A program made the position numbers and the translations under genes. Shown here in pieces: positions 3,481 to 30,497 of a stretch of 47,676 nt of DNA. The notes below the pieces were generated by a model. That model saw nothing but the letters and a program-made list of their open reading frames with translations. It made no database searches and was not told where the DNA came from. Source of the DNA: Candidatus Hydrogenedentota bacterium. Its GTDB lineage: Bacteria > Hydrogenedentota > Hydrogenedentia > Hydrogenedentales > JAGMZX01. The stretch is taken from assembly GCA_029556545.1 (NCBI GenBank), contig JAKQEQ010000039.1, forward strand, positions 1-47,676, in the 5' to 3' direction. Every line of letters starts with the position of its first letter. The stretch's first letter is position 1.

Positions 3481-4554
3481 CTACCGGATGGCAAGCATGC
3501 GGTCGATGGGCAGGCGGGCGCGCTCGATGATCTCGGGGGAGAGTTCGACTTCATACTGCATGTCGCGGAGCGCGGCCACCGTCTGTTCGAGGGTAATCTG
3601 GTTCATGTGCTGGCAGCGCAAGCTGCACGCGCGAACCATTTCGCGATGAGGAAATTCGGCCGCCAGATTGTCGCCCATCGAGCATTCCGTGAGCAGGGCG
3701 TAGCGGCGGCTGTCGTTCCCGCGAACGAAATCAACCATCGCCTTGGTGCTGCCGGCGATGTCCACCCCCTCGATGACCTCGGGCTGGCATTCGGGATGAG
3801 CCAGGATCACGGCGTCCGGGTATTGCCTGCGGATATTCTCGACGTCGCGAACGGTGAAGAGTTCGTGGACCTCACAGCGCGCGTGCCAGCCAATGACCGC
3901 CGGTTCGTCCTTCGGCGCGGCGGTAATCGCGGCCTCGTCATCGGCGGAAAGAAAACGCACGCCCAGCTCCTTCGCCGTGTTGTGGGCGAGGTACTCGTCC
4001 GGCAGGAAGATAATGCGCTTGTGCCCCTGGCGCAACAGGTGTGCGACCACCTTGTCCGCATTGCCGGACGTGCAGCAATAATCCGACTCGGCCTTCACAT
4101 CGGCATAGGTGTTGACGTAGGTGACCACCGGCGCGCCGGGAAAGCGTTCTTTCAGCCGGACAACATCGGCCCGCTCGATGCCCGCCGCCAGCGAACAGCC
4201 GGCCTGCCGCGACGGCACCAACACCGTCTTCTCGGGATTCAGCACCTTCGCGGTCTCGCCCATGAACCACACGCCGCAGAAGACAATAACGTCGGCGTCG
4301 GTCTCGGCGGATATCGCCGCAAGTTGCAGCGAATCCCCGGTGTAATCCGGCACCGAGTGGTAGAGGGCTGGCTCCATATAGTTGTGGCCCAGGATGACGG
4401 CGTTCCGCTCGATCTTCAATTCGAGAACTTCGTGCGCGAGTTCCGCCTTGAAATCGATTTCGAAGTCGGGAATAACCCCCCGCAGCCGCTCGTGCATGCG
4501 CCGGCGTACTTCATCCAGCGAAAGCGCGTGCGCGGCCTTTAATGTCTGTGCCAT
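3481..4554 (-). CDS. nadA: Quinolinate synthase NadA
   Basis: 357 residues. It condenses iminoaspartate with dihydroxyacetone phosphate to quinolinate, for de novo NAD, using a [4Fe-4S] cluster. The three cluster ligands of the family are visible: Cys93 in FCGVWFMGETAK, Cys160/161 in ESDYCCTSGNAD and Cys291 in LLTECSMGDN. HNYMEP near residue 58 is also typical. An in-frame ATG at 4647 would add 31 residues, but the promoter at 4638-4667 overlaps that codon, so it would not be transcribed. The start at 4554 has AAGGA upstream and suits the family length. The gene lies just downstream of the SUF operon, a plausible source of its cluster, but has its own promoter. No nadB or nadC is present. Confidence 0.96.
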   Translation of the reverse strand: MAQTLKAAHALSLDEVRRRMHERLRGVIPDFEIDFKAELAHEVLELKIERNAVILGHNYMEPALYHSVPDYTGDSLQLAAISAETDADVIVFCGVWFMGETAKVLNPEKTVLVPSRQAGCSLAAGIERADVVRLKERFPGAPVVTYVNTYADVKAESDYCCTSGNADKVVAHLLRQGHKRIIFLPDEYLAHNTAKELGVRFLSADDEAAITAAPKDEPAVIGWHARCEVHELFTVRDVENIRRQYPDAVILAHPECQPEVIEGVDIAGSTKAMVDFVRGNDSRRYALLTECSMGDNLAAEFPHREMVRACSLRCQHMNQITLEQTVAALRDMQYEVELSPEIIERARLPIDRMLAIR

Positions 4555-5144: not shown

Positions 5145-6409
5145 TACGCGAACACCTTTTGCACGCGCCGTATGCCGGCGGCAAGCGTGTCCAGTTCCTC
5201 CTTCGTGTTATAGAACGCCAGCGAGGCGCGCGCGGTCGCGGGGACGCCGAAGCGCTGCATGACCGGCTGCGCGCAGTGGTGGCCTACGCGGATGGCGACG
5301 CCGTCCTCATCCAGAAGCTGCCCGATATCATGCGGGTGAACGCCGTCGAGCGTGAAGCTAAGGATGCCGGCCTTGTCGCGCGCGGTGCCGATAAGGCGCA
5401 ATCCCGGAATCTCCTCGAGCAGTTGCGTTCCGTGGCGCGTCAGGTTCTGTTCGTATTCGGCGATGGCGTCCATGCCGATATCGTTCAGGTAATCGACGGT
5501 GGCGCCAAGGCCGATGACGCCCTCGATGTGCGGCGTACCGGCCTCATACTTGTGTGGCAGAATGTTAAAGGTTGTCTTTTCGAAAGTGACCGAAAGGACC
5601 ATGTCGCCACCGCCCTGATACGGCGGCATCTTCTCGAGGTGTTCCACCTTGCCGTAGAGCACGCCGATCCCGGTGGGACCGTACATCTTGTGTCCGGAAC
5701 AGACGAAGAAATCACACCCCATTGCGTGGATGTTGACGGGCATGTGCGGCGCGGACTGCGCCCCGTCCACCACCGCGATCGCGCCCGCGGCGTGGGCCGC
5801 GTCGATAATGGCGCGGACCGGATTAACCGTGCCCAGCGCGTTCGACACGTGCCCTATCGAGACAATCTTCGTGCGCGCGTTCAGGAGCCGCCCGAACGCG
5901 TCCATGTCCAATTCGCCGTCGTCCGTGATCGGGACCACGCGCAGTTTAGACCCCTTCTCTTCGCAGAGCATTTGCCACGGTACGATATTCGAGTGGTGCT
6001 CCATGTGCGAGATGAGAATCTCGTCGCCGGGGCCGATGAATTTGCGCCCGTAGGTCTGGGCAATCAGGTTGATGCCCTCCGTGGCGCCGCGCGTGAACAC
6101 GATCTCGCAGCCGACGGTCGCGCCGAGGAACCGCGCAATCTGCTCGCGAGCCCGCTCGTAGTGGTCCGTCGCCACCTGGCTGAGATAATGGACGCCCCGG
6201 TGGATGTTCGCGTTTTCACGGGTGTAATAGCGCTGGATGGTCTCGATGACGTGGCGGGGCTTCTGCGTGGTCGCGGCGTTGTCGAGGTAGACAATCGGCC
6301 GGCCACCGTGGCGCACCTCGAGAATTGGGAAGTCCCGGCGCACCCGTTCCACGTCGAACGCGCGCCGGACCGTCGCCGGTTCCATGCTGGGAGTGTGGAC
6401 TGTCGCCAT
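5144..6409 (-). CDS. sufS: Cysteine desulfurase SufS
   Basis: 421 residues, class II PLP-dependent cysteine desulfurase. It removes sulfur from L-cysteine, leaving a persulfide on its catalytic Cys for transfer to SufU. The PLP Schiff-base lysine is Lys241 in CSGHKMYGPTG. The nucleophile is Cys379 in RVGHHCAQP, in the short type II loop. Other family blocks are YLDNAATTQKP, HMEHHSNIVPW and VDGAQSAPHMP. The start lies 10 nt after the sufD stop with only a weak GGCGG Shine-Dalgarno sequence, so translation probably depends on coupling. The first 12 residues before VRRAFDVERVRRDFP are variable, so Met9 is a possible alternative start. Confidence 0.96.
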   Translation of the reverse strand: MATVHTPSMEPATVRRAFDVERVRRDFPILEVRHGGRPIVYLDNAATTQKPRHVIETIQRYYTRENANIHRGVHYLSQVATDHYERAREQIARFLGATVGCEIVFTRGATEGINLIAQTYGRKFIGPGDEILISHMEHHSNIVPWQMLCEEKGSKLRVVPITDDGELDMDAFGRLLNARTKIVSIGHVSNALGTVNPVRAIIDAAHAAGAIAVVDGAQSAPHMPVNIHAMGCDFFVCSGHKMYGPTGIGVLYGKVEHLEKMPPYQGGGDMVLSVTFEKTTFNILPHKYEAGTPHIEGVIGLGATVDYLNDIGMDAIAEYEQNLTRHGTQLLEEIPGLRLIGTARDKAGILSFTLDGVHPHDIGQLLDEDGVAIRVGHHCAQPVMQRFGVPATARASLAFYNTKEELDTLAAGIRRVQKVFA

Positions 6410-6419
6410 ACCGCCGCCG

Positions 6420-7754
6420 TTATCGCCTTGGGCTGTATTTCTCGAACACGTACGCCTCGAGACGTTCCCGGAGCGCCGCGACCGACACCTCGCTTACCAC
6501 TTCATCCGCAAACCCGTAGGTTAACATGCCGCGCGCGGTCCGTTCATCCATGCCCCGGGACCGAAAATAGAAAATGACCGGTTCCGGCGGCGCGCCGACG
6601 GTCGCGCCGTGGGTGCACTTGACGTCGTCCGCGTAGATTTCGAGTTGCGGCTTGGTGTTGATCGTCGCGTGATCGGAAAGAAGCATGTAATTACTGAGTT
6701 GGTTCGAGTCGGTCTGTTGCGCCTCGGGCAGCACGTGCACCTTGCCGAGGAACACACCCTTGCTCCGGTCGCCCAGTATGCCCTTGTACGCGATGCGGCT
6801 GCGGCAATGCGGCCGCAGATGCGTGATGTTGACGGCGTTGTCGATGAGGCGCTCGCCGTCATCAAGCATCAATCCGTGGAGTTCACATTCCGCGCCCTCG
6901 CCGTCCAGCGCCACACACATCTGATTCCGCACAATCGCGCCCTCGAGTGTGAACGCGAAGGAACGGAAGCGGCTGTCGCGCGCCTGGCGCACTTCTGTGG
7001 TGGCGAGCAGGTTGCCCCGAGCGCCCTCGCGCACGACCTTGTAGCGCTCGACCGAGGCGTTGGCCTCGACGGCAATCTCGACGACGAGGTTGTTGAAATA
7101 CGGCGTATCGCCAGCCAGATGCACGTGGCTCTCAACGAGGGTGACCTGCGATCCGGCGTCCGCCACGAACAGGTTGCGCGGATGCGCCGCAGTCTCGGGC
7201 CCGCGTTGCGCCGTGCTGAGAAACACGAGATGAACCGGGGTCTCGAGGGCCGCGTTCTTGGGCGCGTATACAAACGCGCCGTCCTGCAGCATGGCATTAT
7301 TCAGGTGCGTGAACGTGTTCCGCGGACCAAGATAATGATTCAGGTGCGCCTCGGCAAGACCCGAGTCGCTCAGGAGCGCCTCCCAAAGGCTGCCCGCGAA
7401 CGCGCCGCGCGGCAACGCGCCCTTGACCGACAGATCGTCCGCGAAGTAACCGTTCACAAAGACCAGTTCCGTCCACGCGCCGTCGCCGAGCAGGAACGGC
7501 GCAACGTCGGACAACGTCAATCCGTGCTCCGTGGGGGCGACGAGGCTCTGGTACGGCGTGCCGACAATGGGCGCGATATTGGTGTGGCGCCACTCCTCCA
7601 TGCGCGTATTCGGGTAGTCCGTCGTCTGGAACGCCGCGACGCCCGCCGCGCGGATGGCGCGGACGCGCTCCGGAGCGCTTGACGTGTCCAGGCGGGCAAT
7701 GTCCCGGATGTAGTGGCTCTTGGGCGCGCGGGATTTGGGGGAATGCGCAGGCAT
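6420..7754 (-). CDS. sufD: SUF complex subunit SufD
   Basis: 444 residues, SufB/SufD beta-helix family. With SufB and SufC it forms the SufBC2D scaffold that builds Fe-S clusters. The C-terminal family signature is clear: SDHATINTKPQLEIYADDV, then KCTHGATVG containing the cluster-associated His, then FYFRSRGMDE. The open frame extends 29 codons upstream, but the ATG at 7754 has GAGGAG about 8 nt before it and sits 19 nt after the sufC stop, so I use that start. The order sufB-C-D-S-U is the common bacterial arrangement with SufU. Confidence 0.95.
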   Translation of the reverse strand: MPAHSPKSRAPKSHYIRDIARLDTSSAPERVRAIRAAGVAAFQTTDYPNTRMEEWRHTNIAPIVGTPYQSLVAPTEHGLTLSDVAPFLLGDGAWTELVFVNGYFADDLSVKGALPRGAFAGSLWEALLSDSGLAEAHLNHYLGPRNTFTHLNNAMLQDGAFVYAPKNAALETPVHLVFLSTAQRGPETAAHPRNLFVADAGSQVTLVESHVHLAGDTPYFNNLVVEIAVEANASVERYKVVREGARGNLLATTEVRQARDSRFRSFAFTLEGAIVRNQMCVALDGEGAECELHGLMLDDGERLIDNAVNITHLRPHCRSRIAYKGILGDRSKGVFLGKVHVLPEAQQTDSNQLSNYMLLSDHATINTKPQLEIYADDVKCTHGATVGAPPEPVIFYFRSRGMDERTARGMLTYGFADEVVSEVSVAALRERLEAYVFEKYSPRR

Positions 7755-7773: not shown

Positions 7774-8541
7774 TCACGCGGTCGCACCCGCGAATGTTTC
7801 CTTGACCCAGTCATAGCCCTTTTCTTCGAGTTCGAGGGCAAGGTTCTTGTCGCCCGACTTCACAATGCGCCCGTTCACGAGCACGTGCACGAAATCCGGC
7901 ACGATGTAGTTCAACAGCCGCTGGTAGTGGGTCACGACGATGAACGCCCGGTTCGGCGATCGAAGCTTGTTTACGCCCTCGCTCACAATCCGCAACGCGT
8001 CAATGTCCAATCCCGAGTCGGTCTCGTCAAGGATGGCGAGCCGCGGTTCGAGCACTGCAAGCTGCAAGATTTCGTTGCGCTTCTTCTCGCCGCCGGAGAA
8101 GCCGTGGTTGACGAAGCGCTCCGCAAAGCCCGGATCGATATTGATGTGGGCCATCTTTTCTTGCAGCAGTTCGCGGAAGTCCATGGCGTCGAATTCCTCG
8201 AGGCCGCGGCTCTTCCGCGTCTCGTTCAGCGCCGCCCGCAGGAAATACTCGTTCGTGATGCCGGGGATTTCGACCGGATACTGAAACGCGAGGAAGAGAC
8301 CCAGCCGCGCCCGCTCTTCGGCGGGCATCTCCAGCAGATTCTCGCCGAGAAACGTCACCGTGCTCTGGTCCTCGGGCACTTCGTACACCTCATGGCCCGC
8401 GAGCACCTGCGCCAGCGTACTCTTGCCCGAACCGTTCGGGCCCATGATCGCGTGGACTTCTCCCGGGTTCACATCCAGATCGATCCCGCGTAGAATCTCC
8501 TTGCCGTCGACCGACGCGTGTAGATTGCGAATTTGCAGCAT
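7774..8541 (-). CDS. sufC: Fe-S assembly ATPase SufC
   Basis: 255 residues, ABC-type ATPase that drives conformational change in SufBC2D. Walker A is GPNGSGKS at about residues 34-41. The ABC signature is FSGGEKKRNEILQ, Walker B is LAILDETDSGLDID, and the switch His is in VVTHYQRLL. The SufC-specific DETDSGLDID form separates it from transporter ATPases. The open frame runs further upstream, but the ATG at 8541 overlaps the sufB stop (TAATG), which fixes the start and implies coupling. There is no transmembrane segment, as expected for a cytoplasmic ATPase. Confidence 0.97.
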   Translation of the reverse strand: MLQIRNLHASVDGKEILRGIDLDVNPGEVHAIMGPNGSGKSTLAQVLAGHEVYEVPEDQSTVTFLGENLLEMPAEERARLGLFLAFQYPVEIPGITNEYFLRAALNETRKSRGLEEFDAMDFRELLQEKMAHINIDPGFAERFVNHGFSGGEKKRNEILQLAVLEPRLAILDETDSGLDIDALRIVSEGVNKLRSPNRAFIVVTHYQRLLNYIVPDFVHVLVNGRIVKSGDKNLALELEEKGYDWVKETFAGATA

Positions 8542-27005: not shown

Positions 27006-27119
27006 GCGTAACGGCGGCACGCAGCCCGATGTCGGTATGCGAGCATTGCCGGAGGGGTCCTAGGCCGCGATGTTTCGCCCCAAAGGTGTTATGAAGAAAT
27101 AGCATGACCGTTGTTAGAC
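27006..27119 (+). other. attC-like site 0 (left border of the array)
   Basis: R'' GCGTAAC (27006-27012) and L'' CGGCACGC are matched by L' GCATGACCG and R' GTTAGAC (27113-27119). The site is 114 bp, within the usual size range. Pairing is imperfect, and no cassette gene lies immediately upstream. Confidence 0.5.
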
Positions 27120-27147
27120 GGCAGAGGACCGGAGGCTCAAGGGCAGA

Positions 27148-28248
27148 ATGGCATACTATCTGGACCTTTTCTCACCTGAGACCTACGAAGCGTTCGCGCG
27201 TTCGGATCGCAACATCTCCGGCTTCCGGATGCGCCACAGGAACGTCGCCAGACGGATCAATCCAGGCGACAAGTTGATCTGCTACTTGACGAGACTGTCG
27301 CGGTGGATGGGGGTTCTGGAAGTGCTCGAGGGCCCTTTTGTCGACGAGACGCCAGTCTTCTATCCTGAGAACGATCCGTTCGTTGTTCGGTTCCGCGTTC
27401 GACCTTTGGTATGGTTATCGGTGGAGAAGGCGATCCCGATCCACGAGGAGCGCGTTTGGAACGAGCTGTCGTTTACCCGCGGGCAGTCCAAGCGTTCGTC
27501 AACCTGGACTGGCAAGCTGCGGGGAAGTCTCGTTCAACTCGATGATTCGGACGGCGCCTTTCTCGAAGGTCTAGTACAGAAACAGATCGACGGTGGTGAA
27601 GCTTACCCGGTGGACCCGAACGAGTTCAGGAGGCTGGCGACGCACCGTATCCGTCGAGCGGACAAGGATGTGACGGTCACGGTCCCTGACGGGACCGGGA
27701 CAGAGGAAGAAGAGATCGGCCGGCCCGAGGTCAGGGAGTCGGCAAAGGTCCAGGCGCTCTTGGCTGAGATAGGCTCGCGGATGGGCATGCAGATCTGGGT
27801 TCCCCGGAGCGATCGCGCCACGGTGCTCGCCGAGTGGCCCGGGGATCATCCGCCCGTCCTGGAGAGGTTGCCGCTAAACTACGATGAGACCACCCTGAAG
27901 ACTATCGAGCAGATCGATGTCCTATGGCTCAAAGGCCGTGCAATCAGGCGAGCTTTCGAGGTGGAACATACAACGTCCGTGTACTCAGGAATCTTACGGA
28001 TGGCCGACCTTCTGGCTCTCCAGCCGAACATGGATATTCGGCTACACATCGTTGCCCCGACGGCTCGGCGAGAAAAGGTCTTCCAAGAACTCATGCGGCC
28101 GGTGTTCTCCCTGCTGGACCGTGGGGCACTCTCCGAAATCTGCACCTATCTTTCATATGACAGCGTGCACGAGCTCGCCGAACAGGAGCACTTGTCCCAC
28201 CTGTCGGACAGCGTGATAGAAGAATATGAGGAAACGGCCGAAACGTAA
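27148..28248 (+). CDS. EVE-domain protein with C-terminal restriction-endonuclease-like domain (cassette 1)
   Basis: 366 residues. Residues about 1-140 resemble the EVE/PUA-like fold that reads modified bases (YYLDLFSPETYEAF, then INPGDKLICYLT, then RWMGVLEVLEGPF). The C-terminal region has QIDVLWLKGRAIRRAFEVEH followed by SGILRMADLL, a PD-(D/E)XK-like core with Asp257 and Glu271-x-Glu273, where the usual Lys is replaced by Glu. Fusions of this kind occur in modification-dependent restriction, so a type IV-like defence role is possible. AAGG precedes the ATG, which lies 35 nt after the cassette border. The nuclease assignment is by pattern only, and the EVE call is the firmer half. Confidence 0.7.
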   Translation: MAYYLDLFSPETYEAFARSDRNISGFRMRHRNVARRINPGDKLICYLTRLSRWMGVLEVLEGPFVDETPVFYPENDPFVVRFRVRPLVWLSVEKAIPIHEERVWNELSFTRGQSKRSSTWTGKLRGSLVQLDDSDGAFLEGLVQKQIDGGEAYPVDPNEFRRLATHRIRRADKDVTVTVPDGTGTEEEEIGRPEVRESAKVQALLAEIGSRMGMQIWVPRSDRATVLAEWPGDHPPVLERLPLNYDETTLKTIEQIDVLWLKGRAIRRAFEVEHTTSVYSGILRMADLLALQPNMDIRLHIVAPTARREKVFQELMRPVFSLLDRGALSEICTYLSYDSVHELAEQEHLSHLSDSVIEEYEETAET

Positions 28249-28254
28249 TCTGCT

Positions 28255-28314
28255 GTCTAACAACGGCATGCAGCGAACAGCGCTGAGTGCCGCCGCTGAT
28301 GTGGAGCGTTAGCC
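28255..28314 (+). other. attC site 1 (60 bp)
   Basis: R'' GTCTAAC is at 28255-28261 and R' GTTAGCC at 28308-28314. L'' CATGCAGCG pairs with L' CGCTGATG, leaving one unpaired G, the extrahelical base expected in attC. Confidence 0.75.
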
Positions 28315-28354
28315 AGCAACGAGGGTTCTGGTGCACAGCGACAGGAGCGGGAAG

Positions 28355-29275
28355 ATGGGGCAAGAAGCCCGCATACAGCAGTCAGTAAACTCGATTCGGG
28401 CACGGCGGTCTTCGCTTGATGCCCTTTCGCGGCAGTTGCGTACCCCGAGCATCCTCGCAAGCTTTGACAAATGGCAACACACCTCCTGGTGCATTTCAGT
28501 GGCTGGTGATTCGCTCGTGCGTCTTCGGCTGTTCACGGAGCAGAACTTTAACATCGTCGAGACGATAGGCGTTGTCGCCGTTGCCAGGTACACGTTCGAA
28601 GTCTCGGTATGGCTCCGCCTATTCGCGCTGGACGGCCGCTATGGCCTTGTGTATTTTGATCAACTACTCGCGACTCAGCAACGTTTCTATGAGGACACGC
28701 TCGCTCAGCTACAACGGGAAGTGGCCTGGCTCAGGTCGTTGGGACAGAAGGAGGGCGGGGCTCATCAAAAGGTACTGAGGGACTTCGGTCCCACCGCTGC
28801 CAATGCCGGCGAAACCCAGAAGCTCGTCTCTGCTTTATCGAGCATTTCGGCAGAGATCGACGCGGAGGCAGGACGACGCTTCTCCATGTACGCAGAAGCC
28901 GCCCGAATTAACGGATACGATTTCCAGGCTTATCTGGTCGAGACCAAGGCGATCCCACCTGTGCGGCAGGCACTCGCGGACATTGCGGCTGAAAGGGACA
29001 GGTTCGACTCGAGGGTTGCACACGAGATCAAGGCCCTCCGACCGGATCGCTGGCAATGGCGGCAGATGGCACAGAAGGTGGGTCGAGCCGACGAGTACGA
29101 CTACCTGTACTCGTTCGCAAGCAAGCTGCTCCACGCGACGCCTGCGAGCATCACGACGGATCAAAAGAACTTGGAATTGCAGGAGATGGAACTCTTCCTA
29201 AAATACATCGACGTCACGATCGGTGATGTCCTGGCACTTGCTGGGGACTATCGGCCAGGAGCCGCTGCTGGCTAA
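28355..29275 (+). CDS. Helical protein of unknown function (cassette 2)
   Basis: 306 residues, predominantly helical by eye. The central VARYTFEVSVWLRLFAL segment and the C-terminal FASKLLHATPAS segment recall DUF5677-type proteins often found in mobile or defence settings; I give this as resemblance only. No transmembrane segment or nucleotide-binding motif is visible. The ATG at 28355 has AGGAG 8 nt upstream; an in-frame GTG at 28331 lacks one. The TAA stop lies inside the R'' box of attC site 2, the tight packing typical of cassettes. Confidence 0.65.
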   Translation: MGQEARIQQSVNSIRARRSSLDALSRQLRTPSILASFDKWQHTSWCISVAGDSLVRLRLFTEQNFNIVETIGVVAVARYTFEVSVWLRLFALDGRYGLVYFDQLLATQQRFYEDTLAQLQREVAWLRSLGQKEGGAHQKVLRDFGPTAANAGETQKLVSALSSISAEIDAEAGRRFSMYAEAARINGYDFQAYLVETKAIPPVRQALADIAAERDRFDSRVAHEIKALRPDRWQWRQMAQKVGRADEYDYLYSFASKLLHATPASITTDQKNLELQEMELFLKYIDVTIGDVLALAGDYRPGAAAG

Positions 29276-29335
29276 CAGGTGCGTGCACCTTCCGATCCTC
29301 TCCGCAGCCCGCAGGTGACGTGCATGATGTTAGGC
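29270..29335 (+). other. attC site 2 (66 bp)
   Basis: R'' GGCTAAC is at 29270-29276 and R' GTTAGGC at 29329-29335. L'' GTGCACCT pairs with L' AGGTGAC, again leaving one extrahelical G. The cassette 2 stop codon is inside R''. Confidence 0.75.
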
Positions 29336-29360
29336 CGATTGAACGGTGAGGAGATATGTG

Positions 29361-29849
29361 ATGCCCTACGACGTACCCCCAGACTGGCTTGATCGAGAAC
29401 TTGTTCTTGCCTTTTTCTGGAAATTCTCCGTATTTGAGTGTGCGCTGAAGCGGGAAGGATTCCTGCGGTCGGGTCGGGATGACGTTGCGCAGCCCGATTG
29501 GACTGCCTTCGGAAACTCGATCCGCGGTCGGTTCAAGACAATCAGCGATAGTCGCTTTCAGGACGCACTTGGGAACTTGAAGAGCGCCTCACCACGCCGC
29601 CAAGTCGTGCGGGATGGCCGTCTCGCATGGGAGCAGATTGGGCGCGGCAACGCGGAGTGCGAGGAGGAGTTCGTGCTTCGACTGGTCAGGACGGCCAGAA
29701 ACAATCTCTTCCACGGCGGCAAGTATCCTGACGGGCCGATCGACGAAGTGGCACGCGACAAGGCAATCCTGCGGGCCGCACTCGGTGTGCTCGACGGCTG
29801 CTACAGACTGCACCCAGGAGTTGCTCGTTGGGTCAGGGAGGCGGCATAA
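29361..29849 (+). CDS. HEPN-like protein with an RX4H motif (cassette 3)
   Basis: 162 residues. Near the C-terminus the helix RTARNNLFHGGKYPDG contains Arg113-x4-His118, the catalytic signature of HEPN ribonucleases used in toxin-antitoxin and abortive-infection systems. The N-terminal helix (ELVLAFFWKFSVFECALKRE) fits a HEPN helix 1. A metal-independent RNase acting during stress or phage infection is therefore plausible, though many HEPN proteins are inactive. No antitoxin gene lies beside it in this cassette. The ATG at 29361 has AGGAG 7 nt upstream; the GTG at 29346 overlaps that site. The stop is inside the truncated attC. Confidence 0.65.
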   Translation: MPYDVPPDWLDRELVLAFFWKFSVFECALKREGFLRSGRDDVAQPDWTAFGNSIRGRFKTISDSRFQDALGNLKSASPRRQVVRDGRLAWEQIGRGNAECEEEFVLRLVRTARNNLFHGGKYPDGPIDEVARDKAILRAALGVLDGCYRLHPGVARWVREAA

Positions 29850-29870
29850 CAAGCCGCTGCAGCCGACCGT
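29844..29870 (+). other. Truncated attC site 3 (5' half only)
   Basis: R'' GCATAAC, then AAGCCGCTGCAGCCGACCG, is a normal attC left half. No matching CGGCTG...GTTRRRY half follows within 200 bp, so the site is cut here. Confidence 0.55.
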
Positions 29871-30127
29871 TGCGGTAAATTGGGGATAACTGTTTTCTTG
29901 GAATTCCTTCCCGCGGGTATCCCTGCGTTCCCGCCGAGACAGGCGGGTGTAGCCATACCCGGGGCTGGCGCATCCTATCACCCGGCGGGGCAACAAGCGG
30001 CGGGACGTGTTTCTTGTTTCGCCCTCGTTATACCGCTTGCGGGTCCGACGATTTGGTCCAATGCGGCGGCGAGCAAGAACTGAGCGCGACTGTCCCGCAA
30101 TCGCGTCCGAGTACGTGCAATCTGTTT

Positions 30128-30353
30128 AGCCCGCCTTGGCGGGCTCTTCTTTGCACCCGCATTTATGCGGGGTGATGCGGAAACCTGCTGTAAAGCGAAG
30201 CGCGCTTCAGCGCGGCTTTACCACGGCTTCAGCATTGTTTCCATGCTGAAGGAGTTCGCCAAGCGGCGCTGAAGCGGCCTGCGCGCGGAAGAAACAGCCC
30301 CTTACACCCCGCGTGAACGCGGGTGCAAAGAGGAGCCGCGCTAAAGCGCGCTG
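30128..30353. repeat. Inverted hairpin-cluster element
   Basis: Two hairpins on the left (stem AGCCCGCC/GGCGGGCT at 30128-30145, then CCCGCAT/ATGCGGG at 30156-30171) reappear inverted on the right (at about 30305-30325 and 30334-30352), joined by the same CTTTGCACC linker. The stems keep pairing although bases differ. Between them are TAAAGC...GCTTTA enclosing CGCGC/GCGCG (30191-30220) and TTCAGCAT/ATGCTGAA (30228-30250). The left hairpin, followed by CTTCTTT, could also act as a terminator. The rest of the gap 29871-30525 holds no gene that I can support. Confidence 0.6.
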
Positions 30354-30497
30354 ACAAGTCCGGCATGCGTCTCGACAAGAAGACCCACAGCGGACCATGG
30401 CGCCCATTTGCGGATTCTTGGGCCGGTTTCCGATTAAATCGACAGACCCGCAAGCGGTGTAACGAGAAGAACGCGGGCGTATGACTTTGGTGGGGCG

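Follow-up and report, generated by a model that had tools for sequence, protein, structure and literature searches.

An integron cassette array without an integrase, and its attI-like site, in a Hydrogenedentota genome

How does a row of gene cassettes come to stand in a chromosome without an integrase? The question is raised by positions 27006–29870 of the window, i.e., the whole 47,676-nucleotide stretch analysed here, which corresponds to contig C34 of a draft genome of 6.1 Mb. The host phylum, Hydrogenedentota, is represented by 68 genomes of a single order, including that of the window. (G, C and L numbers denote genomes, contigs and loci.) A preliminary description had read this interval as an integron cassette array lacking an integrase, with three plus-strand genes set among four attC-like sites. 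That reading is supported by two attC sites found with an independent model, by the cassette borders and by the lack of intI. We consider it very probable that the array is what remains of a chromosomal integron that once carried intI, attI and cassettes on a single strand and has since lost intI.

attC sites of the array

Eighty integron-integrase loci from many phyla (908 kb) served as reference set, and the arrays within them as reference for attC. A simple scanner, which looks for R'' and R' boxes together with an eight-pair L stem carrying one extra base in L'', yields 70 sites in these loci on the cassette strand and 19 on the opposite one; a Markov shuffle of the same sequence gives 1. 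Two covariance models were made for the present analysis (they are not those of IntegronFinder). R1 is based on 44 reference attC sites; R2 is based on 103 reference matches with natural loops, and the window was excluded from the training of both.

In the window, the scanner returns exactly two sites, 28255–28314 and 29270–29335, where Markov shuffles give 0.025 per strand. R2 has no match in the window besides these two, and an Rfam scan at gathering thresholds reports a tRNA alone. Both sites are complete and on the plus strand. The attC of cassette 1 (28255–28314, 60 bp) scores 35.3 bits with R1 (E 6.5e-6) and 44.5 bits with R2 (E 3.1e-8), and the attC of cassette 2 (29270–29335, 66 bp) scores 21.6 bits with R2 (E 0.0051), all E-values being rough owing to a short calibration. 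The former is the top covariance-model match in the whole 6.1 Mb genome. The latter is divergent in sequence and modest in score, with its paired structure intact; R1 does not match it, probably because the R1 training sequences lacked the natural loop and had short spacers. In both sites the L''/L' stem pairs at 8 of 8 positions and leaves a single unpaired extra G in L'', as the preliminary description had claimed; the arms are CAT[G]CAGCG / CGCTGATG and CGT[G]CACCT / AGGTGACG, with the extra base in brackets. As R2 matches on one strand and less than 4 kb apart, the two sites make up a CALIN element, which is defined by at least two such attC. Thermodynamic folding of single sites was significant for attC1 and not for attC2 (z 0.93), and was therefore left out of the evidence.

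At the right end, only the left half (R''-L'') of the cassette 3 attC is present, at 29844–29868 on the plus strand; L' and R' are missing. Among 95,306 window positions on both strands, a left-half PSSM ranks 29844 first (17.9) and attC1 second (16.8), followed by a next-best score of 9.8. The whole-site model gives this site 8.9 bits only. It is a true attC left half whose other half is missing. About 150 bp to its right, at 30024–30466, lies a MITE-like element with 31-nt inverted ends that are 90% complementary and with many copies in the genome.

Thus, of the four sites proposed, two are complete attC by R2 and a third stands as a left half by PSSM, while the leftmost is not an attC. The outcome that would have told against the array, no hit at any site, did not arise, because the model matched two sites and the PSSM one left half.

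Cassettes and their genes

The borders follow from the R boxes: each cassette begins with the T that follows the G in its left R' box and ends with the G in its own attC. Cassette 1 (27114–28308) is bounded by the left R' box GTTAGAC (27113–27119) and its own R'' box GTCTAAC (starting at 28255), which are complementary at 7/7 positions. In cassette 2 (28309–29329), GTTAGCC (28308–28314) and GGCTAAC (29270) likewise match at 7/7; in cassette 3 (29330–29868, its right end truncated and approximate), GTTAGGC (29329–29335) and GCATAAC (29844) match at 6/7. All three cassettes are on the plus strand, and the recomputed values equal those first given. The self-match had been taken as a signature of integration that is unlikely by chance. 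Of 38 cassettes from real reference arrays, 36 indeed reach at least 6/7; R'' and R' inside one site also agree at 6/7 or better in 23 of 38, so that the self-match alone is supportive and not decisive.

Between successive sites there is one open reading frame per cassette, always on the plus strand. The gene of cassette 1 (27148–28248) encodes 366 residues, with an EVE-like domain at the N terminus (Pfam EVE 3.3e-4, below the cut-off; PDB UPF0310/EVE PH1033 3.8e-6) and a PD-(D/E)XK-type restriction nuclease domain at the C terminus (residues 195–343, PADLOC REase_II 2.3e-13). That of cassette 2 (28331–29275, 314 residues) encodes a DUF5677 protein (Pfam 8.1e-7), with relatives of 35–41% identity on plasmids of Pantoea, Enterobacter, Vibrio and Acinetobacter. 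On five plasmids with such relatives, the neighbours include ImmA/IrrE peptidase, methyltransferase or antirestriction genes. The cassette 2 gene was found in none of the 67 other genomes of the host phylum; i.e., the same three genes do not recur in the same order in relatives, a pattern that would have counted against a cassette array. The gene of cassette 3 (29346–29849, 167 residues) has no Pfam match and has distant relatives on plasmids; its RNNLFHG motif resembles, by eye, the R-x4-6-H motif of HEPN nucleases. We infer that the cassettes are expressed.

The left-end element and the relics of integrases

As an attC, the left-end stretch 27006–27119 was rejected: its left half ranks 1108 of 95,306 and no attC model matches it. 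The attC model matches on contig C39 of the same genome led to the same left-end sequence beside another cassette, and a DNA search of the phylum led to further copies. When aligned, the copies share about 85 bp ending at a GTTRRRY box, with a different gene after each; that is, their homology does not extend past the point of cassette insertion. A sequence-only model of the element, R3, was built from 8 copies at other loci with the window copy omitted. It finds the window copy at 27036–27119 (84 bp, plus strand) with 55.4 bits and E 2.7e-14 per genome, as does an HMM likewise made without that copy (nhmmer E 4.5e-15), and the last seven bases, GTTAGAC (27113–27119), are the insertion point of cassette 1. 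The family comprises 20 copies in 15 of the 68 phylum genomes, with three in G044 and two each in the window's own genome and in G052. Among the 80 reference intI loci, all from other bacteria, there was no convincing copy (best 13.7 bits). An attC follows the copies in C39, G052, G007 and G044 (two). Downstream of about 14 of the 20 copies no attC could be recognised; the element might thus serve some other purpose, as promoter or leader, or many copies may have decayed. A promoter scan of the attI region gave no match to a sigma-70-like promoter.

In at least five copies, the element follows the stop codon of a truncated integron-integrase gene on its strand at a distance of about 85–95 bp; the relics in C39, G007, G044 and G001 end 83–94 bp upstream of it. 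The distance from stop to GTT is 165 bp in C39 and 166 bp in G007; in L015 and L019, same-strand integrons of other phyla, the first insertion point lies 201 and 193 bp, respectively, beyond the intI stop. Because of this resemblance in spacing, the element can be said to stand where attI stands. In two other reference integrons the first insertion point is about 1 kb from intI. Copies in C39, G007, G044, G001 and G041 have the two features that define an attI, a place beside intI and a GTTRRRY insertion point; the window copy does not have both. Given the position behind truncated intI genes and the end of homology at the insertion point, the element at 27036–27119 is most likely an attI, as judged from position and sequence conservation.

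The end of the element (window 27095–27119, GCATGACCGTTGTTAGAC) repeats, in inverted orientation, the start of attC1 (28255–28271, GTCTAACAACGGCATGC). The likeness runs past the R box with one base inserted, and perhaps reflects a shared integrase preference. At L192 (G044:C160), two attI-like elements, 5335–5422 and 8211–8295, are separated by 2.9 kb, and each has an attC behind it; they are possibly nested or cassette-borne attI.

Integrase profile and tblastn searches confirmed that the window holds no integrase. Across the genome, the integron-integrase profile reaches 85 bits at best, the cut-off being 265 bits, and the search gave no intact intI; when aligned, the two closest recombinases are without the integron-specific insert. 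Since the draft consists of 195 contigs and is 96% complete, the sequence that it lacks could include an intact intI. No scrap of intI was found beside the window copy of the element, and homology with the other copies begins only at about 27033, which indicates that intI is entirely gone there. The window locus therefore has an attI-like element, yet no intI beside it.

Elsewhere, relics remain. Searches by tblastn with ten reference integrases and the integrase of G064 revealed C-terminal pieces upstream of the element, on the same strand, in G007 (75% identity over 59 residues), G044 (81% over 32) and G001 (64% over 56). In G041 the terminal SPVDDL is left upstream of the element. The relic in C39 consists of DIRTIQELLGR and VFNRSRKGVKSPADDL, split by a repeat, and that in C175 of the window genome (MIYTHVLNWRRSGVRSAMDGL) precedes an FRG-domain gene ending in an attC. 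In a search with the C-terminal 59 residues, integron relics match to the end, unlike ordinary Xer-like enzymes. Besides G064, this search places relics in G000, G001, G007, G044 and G048 only, to which tblastn adds the G041 tail. Usually just the last 15–60 codons of intI are left, in several genera of the phylum.

A search of the rest of the genome, as the preliminary description had advised, thus gave no intact intI and two further wrecks with intI scraps. The wreck on C39 (L152, C39:16000–30000) spans 5777–7441 of that locus and contains an attC (5777–5836), the repeat-interrupted integrase relic, the attI element (6337–6422) and an Mrr-type restriction cassette (6443–7372; PADLOC 5e-96) with its attC (7367–7441). 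The wreck on C175 (L153, 2600–4089) contains the integrase C-terminal relic, the FRG-domain gene and an attC (4030–4089, 23.5 bits).

Within the phylum, 12 of the 68 genomes have attC matches at E 0.1 or better. An intact intI is found in one genome, G064 (446.7 bits), of the same order as the window genome, where a 4.8 kb contig (C186) carries a complete same-strand integron with two attC. The closest reference integrase, from a groundwater deltaproteobacterium, is 81% identical to it, so that recent transfer or contamination is possible. G048, of the same order, has 20 attC matches; it is cassette-rich, with attC on several contigs (L137, L138, L139, L140 and L154) and intI relics, and no intact intI was found in it. 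In the same-genus genome G040, one attC (L148, G040:C38, 4981–5051, 42.1 bits) is followed by a repeat and by small genes that look, by eye, like DUF4160/DUF2442 toxin-antitoxin pairs.

Origin of the array and its place among known integrons

In the course of events that we propose, an integron integrase would have inserted three cassettes in succession at the attI site 27036–27119; they encode the EVE-restriction nuclease, the DUF5677 protein and the small HEPN-like protein. Each insertion would have fallen behind the initial G of GTTRRRY, ahead of the TT, in a reaction between a folded single-stranded attC and a double-stranded attI. Later, presumably, a deletion removed the intI gene that had lain upstream of attI, and the third attC lost its right half, leaving the array frozen. 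It would now be immobile unless an integrase were to arrive in trans.

Loss of intI is one of the proposed origins of CALIN elements (PMC8618304). Off-target insertion is another (PMC8618304); i.e., a trans-acting integrase might have put the cassettes into a secondary, non-attI site, at a locus that never had its own intI. The lack of an intI relic at the window locus is in line with that, but the left flank is homologous to sequence directly behind intI elsewhere, and this homology ends exactly at the insertion point, which makes such an origin quite unlikely. Because an attI is most likely still present, loss of intI, and not off-target insertion, is the probable explanation for the missing integrase. 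We give equally little credence to the idea that the left element is a mobile leader or promoter travelling with cassettes, e.g., a delta-attI-type cassette or a small repeat with an insertion point. Such an element might well occur in several copies per genome, without attC downstream, and twice on one contig, as at L192; however, in five copies its distance to the IntI stop codon is constant, as expected of attI in same-strand integrons.

That the array belongs to another organism, through a binning or assembly artefact, is highly improbable. The assembly is a draft of metagenome type in 195 contigs, but the array lies inside a contig whose flanks on both sides match same-genus G040 at 69–90% identity (their counterparts there sit on different contigs), and the attI element family is present in 15 genomes of the phylum and in 0 of 80 intI loci of other bacteria. 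Chance palindromes or terminators in place of attC are barely conceivable: the folding of attC2 is not significant, whereas the model E-values (3e-8 and 0.005), the 0.025 sites per strand in shuffles and the matching cassette borders all speak for true sites. It is also conceivable, if doubtful, that in this phylum, with its 20 element copies and 1 intact intI among 68 genomes, attI platforms outlive and outnumber integrases as stand-alone docks, several per genome, which are occasionally served in trans or kept for an attI promoter.

The array, read as the remnant of a same-strand integron, is of a kind already known; its phylum, its attI family and the attI retained in an integrase-less array are the additions. 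It resembles CALIN elements, and especially Treponema phagedenis, where attC are kept and intI is lost (PMC3607928), in having attC and cassettes without intI. Unlike these, the window keeps a probable attI, identifiable by homology with sites beside intI relics. With same-strand integrons, i.e., those of the Treponema denticola type, G064:C186 and the Acidobacteria and Rokubacteria loci L015 and L019, it shares a single direction from intI toward attI toward cassettes, the order described for Treponema integrons (PMC3607928). It differs from them in having no intI and in its attI family, found only in the host phylum among the sequences searched. About one third of the intI genes in a 2008 survey were pseudogenes (PMC2426708); compared with such pseudogenes and pseudo-integrons, mostly the last 15–60 codons are left here, across several genera of one phylum. 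The host phylum is absent from a list of integron-bearing phyla published in 2021 (PMC8618304), and no paper on its integrons was found in the literature searched, in agreement with the earlier remark that they are not well described.

The host phylum would thus be added to those with integrons. Judged by homology, the cargo, an EVE-nuclease here and Mrr-type and FRG-domain proteins in the sister wrecks, would fit the idea that sedentary integrons store defence-like genes. Sites of the attI type are usually recognised just by their place beside intI. The probable attI family described here can be found without intI, so that integrase-less wrecks may be recognised by sequence and the loss of integrons may be counted across the phylum.
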